Below the pieces are notes generated by a model. It made no database searches, was not told where the DNA came from, and saw nothing but the letters and a program-made list of their open reading frames with translations. DNA of 64,000 bases from Thermovirga sp. GTDB taxonomy: Bacteria; Synergistota; Synergistia; Synergistales; Thermovirgaceae. Below are positions 44,030-56,009 of the stretch, piece by piece (the stretch's first letter is position 1; the number at the start of each line of letters is the position of its first letter). The stretch spans positions 62,001 to 126,000 of the forward strand of contig NZ_JACDOB010000001.1 of the NCBI RefSeq assembly GCF_017656375.1, in the 5' to 3' direction. The position numbers and the translations under genes are program-made.

Positions 44030-45079
44030 TTAGAAACCTTCAATAATGGACTTAACATAGCTTGCTATCTCTTCTACCGAACATCTGCCAATTACTTTGC
44101 CCTTTTGGAAAAACACTACACCACTTTGTGTTCCTGCGATTCCAAAATCCGCGCCGGATGCTTCTTTGGGCCCGTTAACTTCACAGCCCATAACCGCTAC
44201 TGTCCAATCTTTTGGGAGTTTCCCTAGAGCAGGTTCTATTGCCTCAACAAGCATATTGACATCTACCCTTTTCCTGCCACAGGTGGGACAGGATATAAGG
44301 TCCGCTCGGAAACGCCTAATTCCTAGAGCTTGTAATATTTCTTGACCTACTTTTACTTCTTCCACTGAAGAAGCAGTGAGACTTACTCTTATAGTATCGC
44401 CTATCCCTTGGGATAACATTAAAGCAATGCCAACACTACTTTTAACTATTCCATGGAGCCCTGGACCGGCTTCTGTTATGCCAATATGTAATGGATAAGG
44501 ATATAGTTGTCTTAGCAAAGTGTTAGCTTTCAAAGTTGCTTTTACCGAGGTGGCTTTTGCGGAAATTATTAGATCCTCAAAATCCTCGTCCTGCATAAGA
44601 TTTATTTGCTCTTTCACTGCCAGGACTAAGGCAAGGGCTTCATCGCCTTGAGCCTTTTCGTAAAAGCTAGAAGCCAAAGAACCTCCATTGACCCCAATTC
44701 TTATTACTACTCCCTTGTCTTTTGCCATGCTTATGATCTCGCGCAAAGCTTTTTTGTTTTTCATGTTGCCTGGATTTATTCTTATCGAAGGGCACCCTGA
44801 TTCCATTGCTGCCAAAGCTAGATTGCCGTCAAAGTGTATGTCTGCCATAATCGGAATAGTGGCTTCCTTTACTAAATAATCCAAATCCTGTTTTAGGTCT
44901 AATGAAGGAAAGGCAACTCGCAGTAGTTCGCAACCAACTTCTTTCAGCTTTTTGACTTCGGATAAAATTGCATCCCTTCTGTTTAAAGGGACTTTAAGCA
45001 TACTTTCTACTCTGACTGGGTAGTTGTCACCTATTCCCATTTTGTTTATGAAAACACATCTACTATTATGCTTTTTCAT
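44030..45079 (-). CDS. ispG: 4-hydroxy-3-methylbut-2-enyl diphosphate synthase (IspG/GcpE)
   Basis: Iron-sulfur enzyme converting MEcPP to HMBPP in the MEP pathway. The 349-residue protein is the short bacterial form: PVRVESML near 21-28, GCELLRVAFPS, PIMADIHFDGNLALAAM, IRINPGN, and the [4Fe-4S] ligands C264, C267 (SCPTCGRKRVDV) and C299 (VAVMGCEVNGP), the last followed by the conserved E-V-N-G-P. Last gene of a long operon running from about 57.2 kb; rseP lies nine bases upstream, and dxr is one gene further away. Confidence 0.96.
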   Translation of the reverse strand: MKKHNSRCVFINKMGIGDNYPVRVESMLKVPLNRRDAILSEVKKLKEVGCELLRVAFPSLDLKQDLDYLVKEATIPIMADIHFDGNLALAAMESGCPSIRINPGNMKNKKALREIISMAKDKGVVIRIGVNGGSLASSFYEKAQGDEALALVLAVKEQINLMQDEDFEDLIISAKATSVKATLKANTLLRQLYPYPLHIGITEAGPGLHGIVKSSVGIALMLSQGIGDTIRVSLTASSVEEVKVGQEILQALGIRRFRADLISCPTCGRKRVDVNMLVEAIEPALGKLPKDWTVAVMGCEVNGPKEASGADFGIAGTQSGVVFFQKGKVIGRCSVEEIASYVKSIIEGF

Positions 45080-45088
45080 ATCTATAAC

Positions 45089-46138
45089 TCAGTTCCCTCC
45101 ATGCGTTAAGATTTTTACTAAGTCCTTCCATGTTACGGCAACCAATAAAGAAAGCAATACGATAAACCCCACTAAATGTATATATTGCTCCCACTTTTCC
45201 GGTATTCTTCTCCTAAACACCATTTCTGCAGCAACTATGATCAATCTGCCACCATCAAGCGCTGGGAAGGGGAACAAATTTAATACCCCCAAGTGCAGAT
45301 TGATTAGCGCAAGGAAAGATACAAAGCTCCAAAATCCTTCCTTGGCTGCTTGTCCTGCCATGGTAGCTATACCTAAAGGCCCTGTGACAGAGACATCCGA
45401 TCTACCAGTTATCCACCTGACGATCCCTTCTAATATTTGTACACTAAACCCCCATATATAATCTACAGATTTGAAAACAGCAGATATAGGATTGTATGTT
45501 ACCCTAGCTGGCTGTATCCCCAACAGTGGATATCCATATTCTGGATCAACCGGTATTTCTGCGAATATCTCTTTAACTTTGCCTTCTTTTTTTATCTTTA
45601 TTTTCACTGGTCCAGGCTTGTTTCCGATATTTCTTATAGCTTCAGACATCTCTTTCCAGTTCTCTACAGCTCGGTTCCCAACCTCAATTATGATGTCACC
45701 TTTTTCTAATCCATATTTCTCAGCAGGATAGCCTTTGAGCACATTTCCTATTTTCGTCGAATTTAAATCTAAAACTCCGTGAGTTGATAGTAAGAACGCT
45801 GTTAATAATATGGCGATAACGATATTAGCAATTGACCCGCTTGCAAGAACTATGAATCTTCTCCATGCTGGTTTCCCTCCAAAATCCATTCCTGGTAGTA
45901 CTTGCTCCCCTTCTTTTTCTTCTCCCATACCAGCAAGCCTGACAAACCCACCAATGGGAATACTCCTCAAAGACCAAACAGTCTCTCCTACTTTTTTTTG
46001 GTAGATGCAAGGCCCCATTCCAAAAGAGAACTCATGGACCTGAATACCATTCCATTTAGCTGTTATATAATGGCCAAACTCATGAGAGATTACACATATA
46101 CCTATAACAATAAGAAAAGATAAGGCACTTATTACCAT
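45089..46138 (-). CDS. rseP: Site-2 protease RseP (RIP zinc metalloprotease)
   Basis: Intramembrane protease that cuts anti-sigma factors or signal-peptide remnants. The 349-residue protein has HEFGH at 19-23 in the first membrane helix, FSFGMGP after it, a single periplasmic PDZ domain (about 120-200, YPAEKYGLEKGDIIIEVGNRAVENW), and NLFPFPALDGGRLI with the third metal ligand in the later helices. One PDZ domain instead of the two of E. coli resembles RasP-type proteins. Found between dxr and ispG, the common dxr-rseP-ispG arrangement. Confidence 0.95.
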   Translation of the reverse strand: MVISALSFLIVIGICVISHEFGHYITAKWNGIQVHEFSFGMGPCIYQKKVGETVWSLRSIPIGGFVRLAGMGEEKEGEQVLPGMDFGGKPAWRRFIVLASGSIANIVIAILLTAFLLSTHGVLDLNSTKIGNVLKGYPAEKYGLEKGDIIIEVGNRAVENWKEMSEAIRNIGNKPGPVKIKIKKEGKVKEIFAEIPVDPEYGYPLLGIQPARVTYNPISAVFKSVDYIWGFSVQILEGIVRWITGRSDVSVTGPLGIATMAGQAAKEGFWSFVSFLALINLHLGVLNLFPFPALDGGRLIIVAAEMVFRRRIPEKWEQYIHLVGFIVLLSLLVAVTWKDLVKILTHGGN

Positions 46139-46160
46139 TTACTGCACTCCCATCTTAGAA

Positions 46161-47324
46161 TCAAAGATATTTTTTAAATTGTTCCTTGGCTAAAGTTCTT
46201 CCAATATTTACTAGTTCCACGGCATCCTCCAAGGTTTGAGGCTCTTCTCCTTTATACGAATCAAGGGTTTTTCTAATCAGTTTAGGAATCTCAGTAAAAG
46301 TGATTGATCCTTTAATGTAAAGATTTACAGCTTCTTCATCAGCCCCAACTAAAAGAGCAGGATAGGCACCACCCATTCGGGCTGCCTCAATAGCTACAAA
46401 GTAACAAGGATATCGTTTTTCGTCTATTGGTTTTAAGTTAAGGGTTCCCAATTCCAATGGTTTCTCTTCCGCTGGAACATTAAGCCTCTGTGGATAAGAA
46501 AGTGCATATAAAGTTGGTAAAAACATGTCTGGATAGAATGCAGCAAGACATACAGAACCATCTATAAACTCTACTCCTCCGTGAATCCTAGATTCAGGAT
46601 GAATAAATCCTTCAATTCTATCAATGGGCATGTTAAACAAAATGGATGCTTCAATTATTTCCAGCCCTTTATTCATCATTGTGGCGCTATCTATAGTTAT
46701 CTTGTTTCCCATCTGCCACACAGGGTGTTTTAATGCTTCTTTAGGTTTGACTTCCGACAACGCTTCCAGAGGATAATTCAGGAAAGGACCCCCAGAAGCG
46801 GTAATGAACATCCTTCTTACATCTGAGGCCCTACAGCTTTTACCAAGACATAGCCATATAGCATTATGTTCACTGTCTAGCGGCAACAACTGGTTATCAT
46901 GCTTAATGCTTTCCTTTATCCATTTGCCACCGACTATAAGGCTCTCTTTGTTGGCTATTAGTACATCTTTGCCGCTTTTTAACGCTAAAATCAGGGCCTT
47001 TAATGAAGCTACGCCGGAAGAGGCAAATATAACTTTATCAATATTAGGGTCACATACCATTTCCTCCAATGTTTCAGAGCCCGTTTTCAAGTTTATTCCA
47101 AAAATATCATCTTTATCCATATCATATTTTTTACTCTCATATAAATATGCGTTTTTGGCATTAAATTTTTTGCATATACTTATTAACTTTTCAATGTTAC
47201 GATATGCTGCTGCAGAATATAAGGAAAAAACTTGCGGATAAGTTTCTATAACCCTTAAAACGGCACTTCCCACGCTACCCGTTGCACCTATCAAAGCTAT
47301 CTTGTACATATTCATCAACTCCAT
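46161..47324 (-). CDS. dxr: 1-deoxy-D-xylulose 5-phosphate reductoisomerase
   Basis: NADPH-dependent second step of the MEP pathway. The 387-residue protein has the nucleotide-binding IALIGATGSVGSAVLRVIE, then VLIANKESLIVGG, PLDSEHNAIWLCL, TASGGPF, HPVWQMGNKITIDSATMMNKGLEIIEA and the flexible-loop and metal residues expected. The exact start is unclear: three in-frame start codons lie within the first six codons (ATG 47324 first) and the ribosome site is weak. It overlaps cdsA by ten bases. Confidence 0.96.
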   Translation of the reverse strand: MELMNMYKIALIGATGSVGSAVLRVIETYPQVFSLYSAAAYRNIEKLISICKKFNAKNAYLYESKKYDMDKDDIFGINLKTGSETLEEMVCDPNIDKVIFASSGVASLKALILALKSGKDVLIANKESLIVGGKWIKESIKHDNQLLPLDSEHNAIWLCLGKSCRASDVRRMFITASGGPFLNYPLEALSEVKPKEALKHPVWQMGNKITIDSATMMNKGLEIIEASILFNMPIDRIEGFIHPESRIHGGVEFIDGSVCLAAFYPDMFLPTLYALSYPQRLNVPAEEKPLELGTLNLKPIDEKRYPCYFVAIEAARMGGAYPALLVGADEEAVNLYIKGSITFTEIPKLIRKTLDSYKGEEPQTLEDAVELVNIGRTLAKEQFKKYL

Positions 47325-48136
47325 AAATTTCCCCAGAAAAGATATACCAAAGTTGCTGATATAACCACACTATCGAATCTATCCAAAAATCCGCCATGTC
47401 CTGGAATAATATTTCCTGAATCTTTTATCCCTACTTCTCTCTTAAGCAAGGATTCAGCAAGATCGCCCATTTGGCCAAAAGTTCCGCACAGTAAACCAAT
47501 AACAAGTAAAGGAATAGGCCTCAGCTGCCATAAATACGACAAAAGCCCAGCACACAAAAGGCTACCGGTTAGACCTCCAAGAAACCCTTCCATTGTCTTC
47601 TTAGGGCTTACAAGAGGGGCAAGGGGCGTTTTTCCCCATTTGCATCCGATGAGATATGCCATTATATCGCAGCTCCAGGTACAAAGAAACAATGTACCTA
47701 ATATAAAGATACCCCACGGCTGTTGCCTTAGGGTTATCACGAAAGACCATGGCAAAATACAATAAACGATCCCACCAATAGTACCACTCAAGCTATAAAT
47801 GCCGTGGCTGTTTTCCGTAATACTTTTACGTATTATTTCTACAATCATGACAAGAAAAACACATAAAACTAGTAAGGGAAGCACCGCTTCGTAAAAATGG
47901 GAAAATGAAAGAACAAGCACGGTTGCACCCACTAAAAAGCCTATAGCTCTCGAAACATGAAAAAGACCCTTTATCATCCGGTAAAACTCTGCCAATGATC
48001 CCATGGCTACCATTGAGCAAAAGAGAAACCATGGGTAGCCTCCCAAATACAGAGAGCTCACAACTATGGAAACTATAAAGATTCCGCTTGCAGCGCGTTT
48101 TACTAATTCGTTACTTTTAATATTAAATAGATCCAT
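47315..48136 (-). CDS. cdsA: Phosphatidate cytidylyltransferase
   Basis: Makes CDP-diacylglycerol for phospholipid synthesis at the inner membrane. The start is placed at ATG 48136 (MDLFNIKSNELVKRAASG), ten bases after AAGAGG, giving 273 residues; the longer frame into uppS is not supported. About seven to eight membrane helices are visible, and the C-terminal signature SPKKTMEGFLGGL...FGQMGDLAESLLKREVGIKDSGNIIPGHGGFLDRFDS is complete, with its Asp/Lys/Arg catalytic residues. It overlaps uppS by 14 bases. Confidence 0.94.
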   Translation of the reverse strand: MDLFNIKSNELVKRAASGIFIVSIVVSSLYLGGYPWFLFCSMVAMGSLAEFYRMIKGLFHVSRAIGFLVGATVLVLSFSHFYEAVLPLLVLCVFLVMIVEIIRKSITENSHGIYSLSGTIGGIVYCILPWSFVITLRQQPWGIFILGTLFLCTWSCDIMAYLIGCKWGKTPLAPLVSPKKTMEGFLGGLTGSLLCAGLLSYLWQLRPIPLLVIGLLCGTFGQMGDLAESLLKREVGIKDSGNIIPGHGGFLDRFDSVVISATLVYLFWGNLWS

Positions 48137-48836
48137 AACGTCTTTGCCTCTTAGCATATGATTCAAGGGCTTCATTGAAGTCTTTTTCTGAGAAATCAGG
48201 CCACAATGTCTCAGTAAAGAAAAATTCTGCATAGCTTGACTGCCATAGTAAGAAATTACTTAATCTCACTTCGCCGCTAGTTCTTATTACTAAATCTGGA
48301 TCTGGTACGTCAGGTAAATATAAACAAGACCTGAACAGAGATTCATCCACATTGGGTGGATTCATGTTCAACAATTTCTTTACTGCGTCTATAATCTCTT
48401 GCCTTCCTCCATAATTTATACACAATATAAGATCTAAAGTTTTACAGTGGGAGGTATCATTTTCTACTTTTTCCATGAACAACCTCAATTTTTCTGGAAG
48501 GGATTCTATTCTCCCAGCAAAACGCAATCGTATATCGTTTTTCTTCAATTCAGAACTTTTATTTGCCAAATAGCTTTTTAAAAGGTCAAATAGACCTTCA
48601 ACTTCTTCTTTAGGCCTTTTCCAATTTTCTGTCGAAAATGCATAAAGGGTCAAATATCTTATTTTATTTTTCACAACTAACTTCAAAACCTTTTCTACTG
48701 TCTTTGCTCCTGCTTTGTGGCCAAAAAGCCTAGGCAGGTTTCTTTTTTGAGCCCATCTTCCGTTACCATCCATTATGATAGCTATATGTCGAGGCATGCT
48801 ATTATTTTTCTGTTGAGTTACTTGAGTTGTTCCCAT
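48123..48836 (-). CDS. uppS: Undecaprenyl diphosphate synthase (cis-prenyltransferase)
   Basis: Extends farnesyl diphosphate to the C55 lipid carrier for cell-wall polymers. The 237-residue protein has IAIIMDGNGRWAQKRNLPRLFGHKAGA, LTLYAFSTENWKRP, RFAGRIESLPEKL, NYGGRQEIIDAVK, and PDLVIRTSGEVRLSNFLLWQSSYAEF with the closing WPDF. ATG 48836 is six bases after AGGGTG; a GTG at 48845 is in frame but overlaps that site. It starts right after the uracil-DNA glycosylase stop codon. Confidence 0.96.
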   Translation of the reverse strand: MGTTQVTQQKNNSMPRHIAIIMDGNGRWAQKRNLPRLFGHKAGAKTVEKVLKLVVKNKIRYLTLYAFSTENWKRPKEEVEGLFDLLKSYLANKSSELKKNDIRLRFAGRIESLPEKLRLFMEKVENDTSHCKTLDLILCINYGGRQEIIDAVKKLLNMNPPNVDESLFRSCLYLPDVPDPDLVIRTSGEVRLSNFLLWQSSYAEFFFTETLWPDFSEKDFNEALESYAKRQRRYGSI

Positions 48837-48837
48837 T

Positions 48838-49428
48838 TTATTCACCCTTTAGCTCTAACCACTTTTGTTTTATTTCCTGTATATCTATCCACGTATAATA
48901 TTTAGGGCTTCCTACTTTGTTCGAAGCATTCCTTAAAAGATAACTAGGATGAAACATAGGCCTAACTAAAATTCCTCTCCAATTGAACCACTTCCCCCTA
49001 AGCTTAGAGATGCCCTCTGTAGTTTTTAACAACCATTTGGTAGGAGTGGAACCCAAACACACTATGATCTTGGGGTTTATCAATGCAATCTGGGACATCA
49101 AATATTGATCACAAGCTGTCATTTCTTCAATAGTGGGTACCCTGTTGTTAGGTGGACGACACTTTACGACGTTAGTAATGTACAGTTCCTCTCTCTTAAT
49201 ATTCACTGACTCAAAAATTTTATCCAATAACTGTCCTGCCCTTCCCACAAAAGGGAGCCCTCTTTCATCTTCCTCAGCCCCTGGCCCTTCTCCTACGAAC
49301 ATAAGATCTGTCTCCGTATTACCATAACCAATTACTGCTTGTTTCCTGCTTTCTCCCAGGGGACATTTTTTACATTCTTCTATAAGCTTGCTGAGGTTCT
49401 CCCAAGCAGTTTTTTTTCTCTCGTTCAT
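48838..49428 (-). CDS. Uracil-DNA glycosylase, family 4 (iron-sulfur)
   Basis: Removes uracil from DNA; thermophile-typical family 4. The start is ATG 49428 (MNERKKTAWENLSKL), seven bases after AGAGGTGG, giving 196 residues; a longer frame upstream overlaps the next gene. Features are the cluster cysteines C19 and C22 with two more cysteines in VVKCRPPNN and MTACDQYL, the motif GEGPGAEEDERGLPFVGRAG, and HPSYLLRN. ATGA overlap with the upstream P-loop/Gls24 gene implies coupled translation. Similar proteins were first described as bacteriophage-type DNA polymerase domains, an outdated label. Confidence 0.92.
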   Translation of the reverse strand: MNERKKTAWENLSKLIEECKKCPLGESRKQAVIGYGNTETDLMFVGEGPGAEEDERGLPFVGRAGQLLDKIFESVNIKREELYITNVVKCRPPNNRVPTIEEMTACDQYLMSQIALINPKIIVCLGSTPTKWLLKTTEGISKLRGKWFNWRGILVRPMFHPSYLLRNASNKVGSPKYYTWIDIQEIKQKWLELKGE

Positions 49429-50288
49429 CGAAAGTCCACCTCTTGTATAATTATGTCTATCTTCTTGATATCTAAACCGGTAAAGGTTGATATGGCTCGA
49501 TATAATTTTTTTCTTATTAGGTTCCCTAATTCTGTAAACTGCATCTCTCCGCATATTGCTTTAACTTGTATAGAGAGAGCTACACTATCGTCAAAGGATT
49601 TTACATCCACCCCAAGGACCTTAGCCACACCTCTGGTTCCGGCAGCTACAAATTTTGCTATCTGCTCTATTGCTGTGGGTTCTATATTTAGGTTTCCGTA
49701 AAACCTGAAAGGTGGCCTAACTATTGTTTTTTCTCCTTCGTTAGCTGATTTATCACCCAAGAGGACCTTCAGCCTGCCAACAAGTTTCCCTGCAAAGTTT
49801 CTTCTAACTTGTACGTGAGAAACAGGAATAACATGTTGTCCCTTGGCGGTACGCTCCCGTCTTGCGTTCTGTATCTCTTCTTGAGATGCTACGTCTTCTA
49901 TCCTAACTATTTCCTCCGGAGCGTCCAATCCCAAATTATCTGTTATTCGTTCCACCATTCCAAGCGAAGTAGATATTACCATTACTGTACAAGGCTTTGC
50001 TTTTTTTAAAAAGGCTCTGACTGTTTCCCTATGGTCCTTAAACTGAAACAATGCTCTCCGAATAGCTTTTACTTGGTTTTTTTCTGCTTTTGCGCTTTTA
50101 CCACATACAATTTGACCTTTCCTTATTACCAATCCATCGTCAATTATATAATCTGCCCCCAAGCTATTAGCTACCAGCTGAGCTCGCTGACTTTTCCCTG
50201 TGCCTGCAGGGCCCACAAAAGCTATAACTTTTACCCCTTCAATTTTCTGTTCATTTGAATCTTTATTAGCATTACAGTTACAACTCAA
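49425..50288 (-). CDS. P-loop ATPase fused to an Asp23/Gls24-like domain
   Basis: No named family is known to me for the whole protein. The 287 residues divide into an N-terminal P-loop domain (about 18-190), with Walker A FVGPAGTGKSQ at 25-34, then IIDDGLVIRKGQIVCG and a VMVISTSLGMVERI strand, and a C-terminal Asp23/Gls24 (DUF322-like) domain (about 195-287) with NIEPTAIEQIAKFVAAGTRGVAKVLGVD, VALSIQVKAICGEMQF and TGLDIKKIDIIIQEVDF. The first residues hold two cysteines (CNC). Start is TTG 50288, inside the end of hisC. Stand-alone Asp23/Gls24 proteins are envelope-stress or membrane-associated; the ATPase fusion is unusual. Confidence 0.75.
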   Translation of the reverse strand: MSCNCNANKDSNEQKIEGVKVIAFVGPAGTGKSQRAQLVANSLGADYIIDDGLVIRKGQIVCGKSAKAEKNQVKAIRRALFQFKDHRETVRAFLKKAKPCTVMVISTSLGMVERITDNLGLDAPEEIVRIEDVASQEEIQNARRERTAKGQHVIPVSHVQVRRNFAGKLVGRLKVLLGDKSANEGEKTIVRPPFRFYGNLNIEPTAIEQIAKFVAAGTRGVAKVLGVDVKSFDDSVALSIQVKAICGEMQFTELGNLIRKKLYRAISTFTGLDIKKIDIIIQEVDFR

Positions 50289-51387
50289 CAGATGTCAACA
50301 CCTTCTTCAATGAGGCAAGAAATTTCTCATTCTCTTCCGGTAAGCCGACAGACACTCTAAGATGCCCAGGCAACCCTAAATCACTTCCTTTTCTAACTAT
50401 AACCCCTTCTTTTAACAACAATTCAAATATTAAATCTGATTTGGGATGTTTTATAAGAAGAAAGTTTGCACAGGAACTTATAGTATACATACCCAACTCC
50501 CTAAGAGACTCCAATAACTTCTTTCTTTCAGCTATTGTCTTAATACGAACTTCTCTGACGTGATCTTCCTCGGCAAGCGCAGCAGCTGCGGCCTTTTGAG
50601 CTATACTATTCACTTCAAAAACCGGATGCGTCTTATCGTAAGCATCTACAACGACTTTAGGTGCAATAGCATAAGCAACCCTTAAAGCTGCAAGCCCATA
50701 GATCTTGGAAAATGTCCTTATAACAACGACCCTTCCAACTTGCCTGAAAAGCTCAACTCCTGCCAAATAAGCAGGATCGTCTACATACTCGGCATATGCT
50801 TCGTCCACAATGAGAAGAACTCCTTTGCTTTCGAGCTCTACTGCAAGTTTTATAAGTTCACTTCTGGGTATCATTTTGCCTGTGGGGTTATTGGGGTTGC
50901 AGATTACCAATGCTTTAGTTTTTTCGCTGCAATTTGATATTAAATCTTCCACCATCCAGTAATCTTCATCTTTTGCATTGATTTCAATACACTTAGCAGA
51001 TGCCGCAATAGCAGCAAGTTTATAAAGCGGATACGTAGGTGTTGGCAAAACAATTTCTTCACCAGGGTTTATTATTGCGTGAAGTAGAGAGTGTAAAATA
51101 CCTTCAGTTCCTGCCCCGATAATTACCTCTTTAGGAGATACTCCCCATTTAGTCGCTATGATTTTTCGTAAAAAATACGAACCTGGCTCGGGATATCTTT
51201 GCACTTCCTTGGAACCTCTCACTATGGCTTCACACACTGCATCTGGCAAAGGCCAGGGACTTTCGTTGGAGCACAGTTTAACTATTTTTTCAAATCCTAG
51301 CTCTCTTTGCAGTTCTTGAATAGGTTTGCCGTAACGATATTTCTCAACCAAATTAAGGTCTTCACGAACTATTTTTTTAACCCACAT
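50278..51387 (-). CDS. hisC: Histidinol-phosphate aminotransferase family PLP enzyme
   Basis: PLP-dependent fold-type I aminotransferase, best match HisC: KLCSNESPWPLP near the start, GAGTEGILHSLLHAI, PTPTYPLYKLAA, VICNPNNPTG, IVDEAYAEYV, and TFSKIYGLAALRVAYAI with the Schiff-base lysine. Length 369 is typical. No other his genes lie near, and such lone hisC genes may act on aromatic amino acids or phenylpyruvate, so the biosynthetic label is tentative. ATG 51387 has AAAGGGGG. It sits 38 bases after murA and overlaps the P-loop/Gls24 gene. Confidence 0.85.
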   Translation of the reverse strand: MWVKKIVREDLNLVEKYRYGKPIQELQRELGFEKIVKLCSNESPWPLPDAVCEAIVRGSKEVQRYPEPGSYFLRKIIATKWGVSPKEVIIGAGTEGILHSLLHAIINPGEEIVLPTPTYPLYKLAAIAASAKCIEINAKDEDYWMVEDLISNCSEKTKALVICNPNNPTGKMIPRSELIKLAVELESKGVLLIVDEAYAEYVDDPAYLAGVELFRQVGRVVVIRTFSKIYGLAALRVAYAIAPKVVVDAYDKTHPVFEVNSIAQKAAAAALAEEDHVREVRIKTIAERKKLLESLRELGMYTISSCANFLLIKHPKSDLIFELLLKEGVIVRKGSDLGLPGHLRVSVGLPEENEKFLASLKKVLTSVEL

Positions 51388-51425: not shown

Positions 51426-52712
51426 CTACCACTTAGAATCTCCATTCTCTTCTGACGGCAGCTCCTCTACCTCTCCCCCAAGAGACCTCAGTTTATCTTC
51501 AAAATTCTCATAGCCTCGTCTTATATGTCCCAATCCATATACAGTTGTCTCGTCTTCTGCTGCAAGGCCAGCTAAGACAAGGGCAGCACCTGCTCTTAGG
51601 TCAGTAGCTCTTACTTCAGCCCCCTTAAGTTTCGAAACTCCATTAACTATTGCAGTATTACCTTGTAGCTCTATATTGGCACCCATACACTTTAGTTCAC
51701 TTATATGTAAAAACCTAGACTCAAAAACAGTTTCTTTTATAACGCTAGTGCCTTCTGCTATTGTCATCAGAGCTGTAAACTGAGGCTGCATATCTGTAGG
51801 AAAGCCAGGGTAGGGTAAAGTTTTTAAGGATACCCCTTTCATTTTACAGTCTCTTGCATCTACTGTAACTGCGTTTTGCTCAATTTCTATATTGATCCCT
51901 GTTTCCTCTAACTTGGCTAATGTTGCGTCAATATGCTCTAACATTACGTTTTTAACCTTAACCTTACCTCTTGTAATAGCACCCGCCACCATAAATGTCC
52001 CTGCTTCTATCCTGTCTGGAATTATCTCCACTTCTGTCTCATTTAGGTTATCAGTGCCTTCTACATGAATTATTCCAGTTCCTACTCCTTCTATCTTGCA
52101 CCCCATTAACTTTAGAGCATCAGCCAGGTTGGTTATTTCCGGTTCTCTAGCGGCATTTTCAATTATTGTTTCCCCCTTCGCAAAGACAGCAGCCATCATA
52201 ATATTTTCAGTAGCTCCCACAGATGGGAAATCCAGATATATTCTGGTGCCTTTCAATTCCTTGGCTTGTGCATGAACAGCACCGTGCACTAAATCAATTT
52301 CAGCTCCTAATTTTGTTAAACCCTTGAGATGTAAGTCTATTGGGCGGCTTCCTATGGCACATCCTCCAGGAAGAGGCAAAATTGCCTTTCCCATTCTGGC
52401 AAGCAAAGGCCCAAGAACAAGGGATGAAGCTCTCATTTTACTGACTAAAGCCTTAGGGGTTTCCCAGCAAAGGTCCTCAGGAACGGATAACACCATACTA
52501 TGATCCACATGTCTTACCTCAACGCCTAATTGCCTCAATAAGTCAGCCATTGTATAAATATCTTCCAACTTTGGAACATGTTTTACTTTCAATGTTTTGC
52601 CCTTAAGCAACAGAGCCGCAGCTATTACCGGCAAAGCAGCATTTTTGGCCCCTTGCGTTGTGACTTCCCCATTTAAAGACTTACCGCCTCTAATTATCAT
52701 TTTGGAGCGCAC
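51426..52712 (-). CDS. murA: UDP-N-acetylglucosamine 1-carboxyvinyltransferase
   Basis: First committed step of peptidoglycan synthesis; target of fosfomycin. The 428-residue protein has MIIRGGKSLNGEVTTQGAKNAALPVIAAALL and PGGCAIGSRPIDLHLKGL, whose cysteine C118 is the fosfomycin-reactive residue (so not a naturally resistant Asp form), plus DRIEAGTFMVAGAITRG and YPGFPTDMQPQ. The start is a judgement: GTG 52712 is six bases after GAGGTG, while ATG 52718 and 52730 are too close or upstream. Between wecB and hisC in the envelope cluster. Confidence 0.95.
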   Translation of the reverse strand: MRSKMIIRGGKSLNGEVTTQGAKNAALPVIAAALLLKGKTLKVKHVPKLEDIYTMADLLRQLGVEVRHVDHSMVLSVPEDLCWETPKALVSKMRASSLVLGPLLARMGKAILPLPGGCAIGSRPIDLHLKGLTKLGAEIDLVHGAVHAQAKELKGTRIYLDFPSVGATENIMMAAVFAKGETIIENAAREPEITNLADALKLMGCKIEGVGTGIIHVEGTDNLNETEVEIIPDRIEAGTFMVAGAITRGKVKVKNVMLEHIDATLAKLEETGINIEIEQNAVTVDARDCKMKGVSLKTLPYPGFPTDMQPQFTALMTIAEGTSVIKETVFESRFLHISELKCMGANIELQGNTAIVNGVSKLKGAEVRATDLRAGAALVLAGLAAEDETTVYGLGHIRRGYENFEDKLRSLGGEVEELPSEENGDSKW

Positions 52713-52768
52713 TAACATCACCTCATTCAAGTTGGAAATTACTTTTCGTTCACAGTCATACTAATTTA

Positions 52769-54878: not shown

Positions 54879-56009
<1,131 letters not shown>

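Follow-up and report, generated by a model that had tools for sequence, protein, structure and literature searches.

A P-loop domain fused to an Asp23/Gls24 domain: a Synergistota core gene and its candidate roles

Asp23 proteins are abundant and poorly understood, and in the genome of Thermovirga sp. an Asp23 domain is joined to a P-loop domain within an envelope/isoprenoid operon. We asked whether this frame is a real gene, how far it is shared, and what its product might do. The window analysed is a stretch of 64,000 nucleotides (contig NZ_JACDOB010000001.1, positions 62,001 to 126,000 of the forward strand), and all coordinates below are positions in it unless another source is given.

The fusion gene and its operon

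A first, sequence-only reading of the window had described a single uninterrupted frame at 49425-50288. The position is right and the frame of 287 codons is open throughout; its strand, which had been left unstated, is minus (Table 1). When the window was shuffled 40 times, stop-free runs reached at most 205 codons, and a first search found orthologues with 39-79% identity in 59 of 61 genomes from the bacterium's own order. On these two grounds we regard the fusion as a real gene, whose TTG start is preceded by AAGGTG. The alternative that a sequencing error merged two unrelated genes is refuted and has practically no probability left: the joined frame occurs in hundreds of genomes of several phyla and in the RefSeq protein WP_158648977.1, and no point in favour of an error was found.

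The gene lies, as had been read, between hisC and a family 4 uracil-DNA glycosylase (UDG) gene, both of which score above their cut-offs. The stop of the upstream hisC overlaps the fusion-gene start by 11 nt, and the ATG of the downstream UDG gene, preceded by GAGGTGG, overlaps the fusion-gene stop as ATGA; with these overlaps the gene looks translationally coupled on both sides. The mechanically called UDG frame (48838-49554, minus strand) begins 126 nt too early, within the fusion gene, and its likely start is the ATG at 49428. The surroundings had been described as an operon of cell-wall and lipid genes, which holds for murA, uppS, dxr, rseP and ispG; these pass curated NCBIfam cut-offs, as do hisC, UDG family 4 and wecB. 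It holds less well for cdsA, which, like wecA, gave sub-threshold NCBIfam matches only. At 54879-55982 on the minus strand, a single frame combines ribose 5-phosphate isomerase B-like and uracil phosphoribosyltransferase-like halves (rpiB-upp, read from the sequence), and most Synergistota loci have this joined frame at the corresponding position.

Table 1. Features of the fusion gene, its protein and its neighbours in the window
Feature	Position	Strand	Details
murA	51426..52730	-	Upstream, same run; TIGR01072, 558 bits
hisC, histidinol-phosphate transaminase	50278..51387	-	TIGR01141, 303 bits, above cut-off
P-loop/Asp23 fusion gene	49425..50288	-	287 aa; TTG start at 50288, TGA stop at 49425-49427
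N-terminal P-loop domain, residues 19-150	49839..50234	-	AlphaFold pLDDT mostly 80-98; mean column conservation 0.59 (n=112 proteins)
Walker A GPAGTGKS, residues 26-33	50190..50213	-	Motif in 111/112 relatives; K32 and S33 in all
D50-D51-G52, end of strand 2	50133..50141	-	Invariant, 112/112
S65-A66-K67, after beta hairpin	50088..50096	-	K67 invariant
LID-like stretch R146...H152-V-I-P155	49824..49853	-	R146, H152 and P155 in 112/112; putative function
Linker with RPPF, residues 187-202	49683..49730	-	Conservation 0.62; low pLDDT at 178-200
Asp23 (DUF322/Gls24) domain, residues 203-287	49428..49682	-	alpha-beta-beta-alpha-beta; hhalign; model pLDDT about 86-97
Family 4 uracil-DNA glycosylase	48838..49428	-	TIGR00758, 203 bits, above cut-off
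uppS, cdsA-like, dxr, rseP, ispG	44030..48845	-	Downstream, same run; NCBIfam

The P-loop and Asp23 domains

The Walker A domain of the sequence-only reading was confirmed, and the P-loop NTPase pattern GxxxxGK[ST] is present in 111 of 112 relatives. Over these 112 proteins, K32, S33, D50, D51, G52, K67, A79, S108, M111, A142, R146, H152 and P155 are in effect invariant, and the N-domain is better conserved than the Asp23 domain (0.59 versus 0.34), a pattern that points to a working nucleotide site in the N-domain. Binding of a nucleotide by the fusion protein is very probable in our judgement. D50-D51-G52 occupies what we take to be the position at which shikimate kinase and other small kinases carry their acidic pair, the catalytic acids, and the stretch from R146 to P155 appears to be placed where a LID would be.

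An AlphaFold model based on 70 Synergistota sequences is confident for the N-domain, with the order strand, P-loop, helix, strand, hairpin, helices, strand, helix, strand, helix, and for the alpha-beta-beta-alpha-beta C-domain, and poor over a stretch of about 154-200. Folded alone, the N-domain reached a mean pLDDT of 86. The strand expected to carry a Walker B acid has none, as strand 100-106 is followed by TS and no acid. The label 'ATPase' in the sequence-only reading was too strong, since the Walker B acid is missing and the nearest folds, all of them weak matches, are small-molecule and nucleotide kinases. Membership of the AAA ATPases (PF00004) was rejected: the match of 21.4 bits against a cut-off of 21.2 covers only profile positions 2-54 of 131, which is the Walker A half, and stops short of the Walker B DE and the remainder of the module.

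A comparison of the predicted N-domain structure with known families, which had been suggested at the outset, put the small kinases nearest. The first matches were a designed ATPase, cytidylate kinase (Cmk), gluconate kinase and dephospho-CoA kinase, at TM 0.3-0.46 with large rmsd, and the structure matches of the N-domain as a whole are poor (TM 0.24-0.46, rmsd 5-16). Profile comparison gave cytidylate kinase at 93% over 33 columns, MeaB at 72%, and FtsE and DnaI at 51% each, in every case within the P-loop region, beyond which no match of the N-domain was trustworthy. The direct match to cytidylate kinase (TIGR00017/PF02224) scored 17.6 bits against a cut-off of 26, again in the P-loop region and not over the full length. 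Cmk, gluconate kinase and dephospho-CoA kinase are the best natural structural neighbours, and such small P-loop kinases share with the N-domain the Walker A motif, acidic residues after strand 2 and the lack of a Walker B acid; they differ in that the structural matches stay below TM 0.47 and the N-domain has no known substrate motif. The N-domain is nearer to these kinases than to AAA+ ATPases, and we conclude that it is a kinase-like P-loop domain forming a family of its own.

Several narrower assignments were also considered. A MiaA/isopentenyltransferase origin, an idea that arose from a similar motif order and from weak MiaA and IPT matches and gained appeal from the isoprenoid genes nearby, was rejected after the N-domain reached only 18-34% over 34-37 columns against a profile of 24 MiaA proteins (TIGR00174). 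Shikimate kinase (PF01202) gave 5.6% in a weak test, the template consisting of matched stretches only and some loci giving empty sequences. The comparison labelled 'gnt' was equally weak for the same reasons and, being made with mixed small kinases that read mostly as adenylylsulfate-kinase-like, does not amount to a gluconate kinase test; no true gluconate kinase was found in the 149 genomes searched. A further proposal is that the protein is a plain metabolic kinase for a small molecule, with the Asp23 domain as an oligomer scaffold only. The kinase-like fold matches, the invariant acidic pair after strand 2 and the invariant R146 would suit such an enzyme, whereas the weakness of the structural matches and the absence of both a known kinase's substrate-binding motif and a consistent metabolic neighbour make it unlikely.

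At the C-terminus, residues 226-284 of the window protein match Pfam PF03780 with 24.9 bits (E 2.9e-5), below the cut-off of 28. The same profile is matched by 28 of 32 family members (best E 8e-11), and the family profile of the C-half aligned at 99.3% (hhalign, E 5e-20, 98 columns) with a profile of ten proteins taken as stand-alone Asp23, one of which (from L125) is a wrong ORF and not an Asp23 protein; the N-half, used as a negative control, gave 0.4%. Because of the 28 matching members and the 99.3% alignment, the Asp23 identity of the C-half is secure. The DUF322-like domain first proposed, which was to be given up if residues 195-287 had no significant Asp23 match, is therefore borderline on the single window sequence and settled in favour of Asp23 by the family. 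The fusion of the two domains in one protein is seen in hundreds of genomes, and no characterised family was found to match it over its full length in Pfam, in NCBIfam or through the family members, both in agreement with the sequence-only reading. We are close to certain of the anatomy and the family of the protein.

No membrane-spanning stretch was found in the fusion protein (highest 19-residue hydropathy 0.92), which looks soluble and cytosolic. In a fold search with the whole model only C-domain matches were listed, the best in the PDB being MamM/MamB, whose cation-diffusion C-terminal domain is the nearest solved fold at about 9-14% identity, a match for which we claim no relation at sequence level; a sequence search of the PDB turned up no solved Asp23 structure. 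Among NCBIfam families, AmaP (NF033218) is matched most often, by 24 of 32 family members, and the window protein scores 18 bits for it against a cut-off of 55.

Distribution and gene neighbourhoods

Of 188 Synergistota genomes, 177 carry the fusion, as a single full-length match in each. The 11 genomes without it are all 82% complete or less, and every searched Synergistota genome more than 82% complete carries it, one of them as a partial copy at a contig end. It is a near-universal core gene of the phylum; a check of its taxonomic spread, called for at the outset, thus found it to be widespread and not local. Outside Synergistota, the fusion occurs in about 40 of 50 genomes of a second phylum, in one genome of a further phylum, and, within a Bacillota-like phylum, at full length in 105 of 249 genomes. 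This third phylum is probably Bacillota, given its dnaD, dnaI and spoVS-like neighbours (read from sequence) and a relative in Monoglobus pectinilyticus (Clostridia). In a tree of 112 proteins, a branch with support 93 has the Synergistota sequences together on one side, as would be expected if descent was mainly vertical. Among the searched genomes the N-domain was found without an Asp23 domain only at contig ends, and profile matches confined to the C-half were stand-alone Asp23 proteins. No relative of the fusion protein was found in phages.

The Monoglobus protein (WP_158648977.1), named Asp23/Gls24 family envelope stress response protein in RefSeq, carries both halves, is a full-length relative (36% identical across 72% of the query) and matches PF03780 with 29.8 bits, over the cut-off of 28. 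Its name covers the Asp23 half only, and its neighbours differ from those in the window, with rex upstream and a DNA glycosylase gene downstream. In Monoglobus the fusion gene lies, with rex and aconitase, on a 285-kb replicon listed as a plasmid (L440; NZ_OY725741.1, 110638-123261); these three genes look chromosomal, and the replicon is possibly a chromid or a misassigned contig.

A canonical stand-alone Asp23 protein (80 bits) is encoded in the same genome as the fusion at G000:C3:74268-74579 (L111), between efp-like and nusB-like genes, and is followed by an unmatched protein of 171 aa that may be a degenerate Asp23/AmaP relative. Since the genome has this canonical Asp23, the fusion protein is an addition to it and not a replacement.

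In Synergistota the fusion gene sits between murA or hisC and UDG-uppS-cdsA-dxr-rseP, with murA no more than 6 kb away in 75 of 85 loci; the extent of the operon rests on flanks of about 6-7 kb. In the second phylum the fusion gene stands after secA-prfB in one class and before the methylmalonyl-CoA mutase genes in the other, and mmdA, a carboxyltransferase gene, and a biotin carboxyl carrier gene adjoin it in 11 of 13 loci, all with gene naming from sequence. Among 80 Bacillota-like loci we counted dnaD in 24, dnaI in 20, an aminotransferase in 19 and mmdA in 10, against 0, 0, 1 and 0 in 40 random control regions of the same phylum. The Fisher p values are 1.5e-5 for dnaD, 1.2e-4 for dnaI and 0.014 for mmdA-like genes (within about 7 kb), and are to be read with controls of 40 regions only and loci that are not independent of one another. 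In Synergistota, mmdA lies near the gene in 3 of 85 loci (mostly with 6-kb flanks), and neither dnaD nor dnaI was found near it in these 85 loci or in the 13 of the second phylum. On the tree, the dnaD label requires 5 changes and the mmdA label 9; with multiple changes, neither context is one inherited block, and the mmdA link arose repeatedly. Other neighbours outside Synergistota include nuoEF.

No single pathway is common to these neighbourhoods, and hence the operon in the window cannot by itself carry a functional claim. The envelope/isoprenoid operon is a Synergistota trait and weak evidence for a wall role, so that reading the role from it is not supported: other phyla have dnaD-dnaI, mmdA-bccp, nuoEF or others instead, and the protein has no membrane stretch. 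An envelope stress or cell-wall protein, as suggested by the RefSeq name and the murA-uppS operon, would agree with the operon of murA, wecA, wecB, uppS and dxr and with the induction of the cell wall stress response on loss of Asp23 in S. aureus (PMC6954212). Against this, the context is not kept outside Synergistota, the protein has no membrane anchor and the genome carries a separate stand-alone Asp23, and we consider such a function improbable.

Where dnaD-dnaI neighbours the fusion gene (24 of 80 Bacillota-like loci), it lies in the same operon or divergently, in two gene orders (L202, L209, L216, L311, L314 and others). A DNA glycosylase gene directly follows the fusion gene in clostridia-like loci (8-oxoguanine type at L212:8278-9192; L297:5738-6634; L440:6845-7681), at the place of UDG in Synergistota. 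A serious rival is a role in replication or repair, as a nucleotide-dependent factor aiding the DnaD-DnaI primosome or base-excision repair. It draws on the excess of dnaD and dnaI over controls, on their recurrence in two gene orders at three places on the tree, and on the glycosylases directly after the gene (UDG in Synergistota, OGG in two Bacillota-like loci, and Monoglobus). However, neither dnaD nor dnaI lies near the gene in the Synergistota and second-phylum loci, most lineages have no replication or repair neighbour of this kind, the protein has no DNA-binding domain match in Pfam, and neighbourhood alone cannot separate function from inherited gene order; we give this rival a low probability.

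A tentative role and comparison with known systems

In B. subtilis, YqhY, an Asp23 protein encoded with accB-accC, reportedly keeps acetyl-CoA carboxylase in check (PMC5437119), and yqhY has been reported to be essential in C. difficile (PMC12548448). The Asp23 protein of S. aureus assembles into filaments, with AmaP keeping it at the membrane (PMC6954212). No papers on a P-loop/Asp23 fusion were found in the literature searched, which mostly excludes subscription journals; the subfamily seems to be unstudied, with automatic annotation naming the Asp23 half only.

Our preferred reading, which we put forward tentatively, is a cytosolic nucleotide-dependent regulator that docks through its Asp23 domain, the most likely class of partner being biotin-dependent acyl-CoA carboxylases or decarboxylases, or some other lipid-precursor step. 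The biotin-dependent enzymes are favoured because of the analogy with YqhY and the repeated mmdA neighbours. From the gene, domains, family, spread and conserved residues established above, we infer nucleotide binding, catalysis or switching, oligomerisation and a partner in the following scheme. The N-domain would adopt a fold like that of P-loop kinases and bind ATP or another NTP, and the invariant D50-D51, K67, R146 and H152 would close over the nucleotide; the closed domain would then either pass phosphate to a small substrate or serve as a conformational switch. The Asp23 domain may oligomerise and dock on the partner, as in stand-alone Asp23 proteins, and the fusion protein would thereby couple nucleotide state to the supply of lipid precursors.

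This carboxylase-regulator reading agrees with the conservation of Walker A in 111 of 112 proteins and the invariance of D50, D51, G52, K67, S108, R146, H152 and P155, with the predominance of kinase-type folds among the N-domain structure matches, and with an Asp23-fold C-half that is parted from the N-half at contig ends only and comes without a transmembrane stretch. It also agrees with the presence of mmdA-like genes no further than about 7 kb away in 11 of 13 second-phylum loci and 10 of 80 Bacillota-like ones, where none of the 40 controls has such a gene, and with the restraint of acetyl-CoA carboxylase by YqhY (PMC5437119) and the filaments of S. aureus Asp23 (PMC6954212). However, only 3 of 85 Synergistota loci have mmdA nearby, the dnaD link (24 of 80) is stronger than the mmdA link, the N-domain has poor structure matches and profile matches to the P-loop only, and the comparison uses 40 controls and non-independent loci. 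A broader and more speculative version, to which we assign a smaller chance, is a widespread subfamily of nucleotide-gated Asp23 proteins in which the P-loop kinase-like domain would control Asp23 docking or filament formation and so regulate biotin-dependent acyl-CoA carboxylases or another core process. If this were true, it would be, to our knowledge, the first case of a nucleotide switch built into an Asp23-family system.

The fusion is thus a core Synergistota gene, present also in many Bacillota-like genomes, whose name comes from the less conserved of its two halves and for which we found no described function; with its invariant nucleotide-site residues it offers a direct handle on what the Asp23 fold does. 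In common with the Asp23/Gls24 family (YqhY, YloU and S. aureus Asp23), it has the fold of its C-terminal 85 residues with the TGL-V--VDI-V ending, and likely a docking or oligomer role of that domain. With regard to a YqhY-like regulation of a carboxylase, mmdA-like neighbours of the fusion gene occur in some lineages and are absent from most Synergistota loci. AmaP likewise has an Asp23-like C-terminal part, but AmaP is a membrane anchor, whereas the fusion protein lacks a hydrophobic stretch and looks soluble. YqhY, YloU and S. aureus Asp23 are small stand-alone proteins without a nucleotide-binding domain; in contrast, the fusion protein has 287 aa and an obligate N-terminal P-loop domain, joined to the Asp23 domain in all relatives seen.
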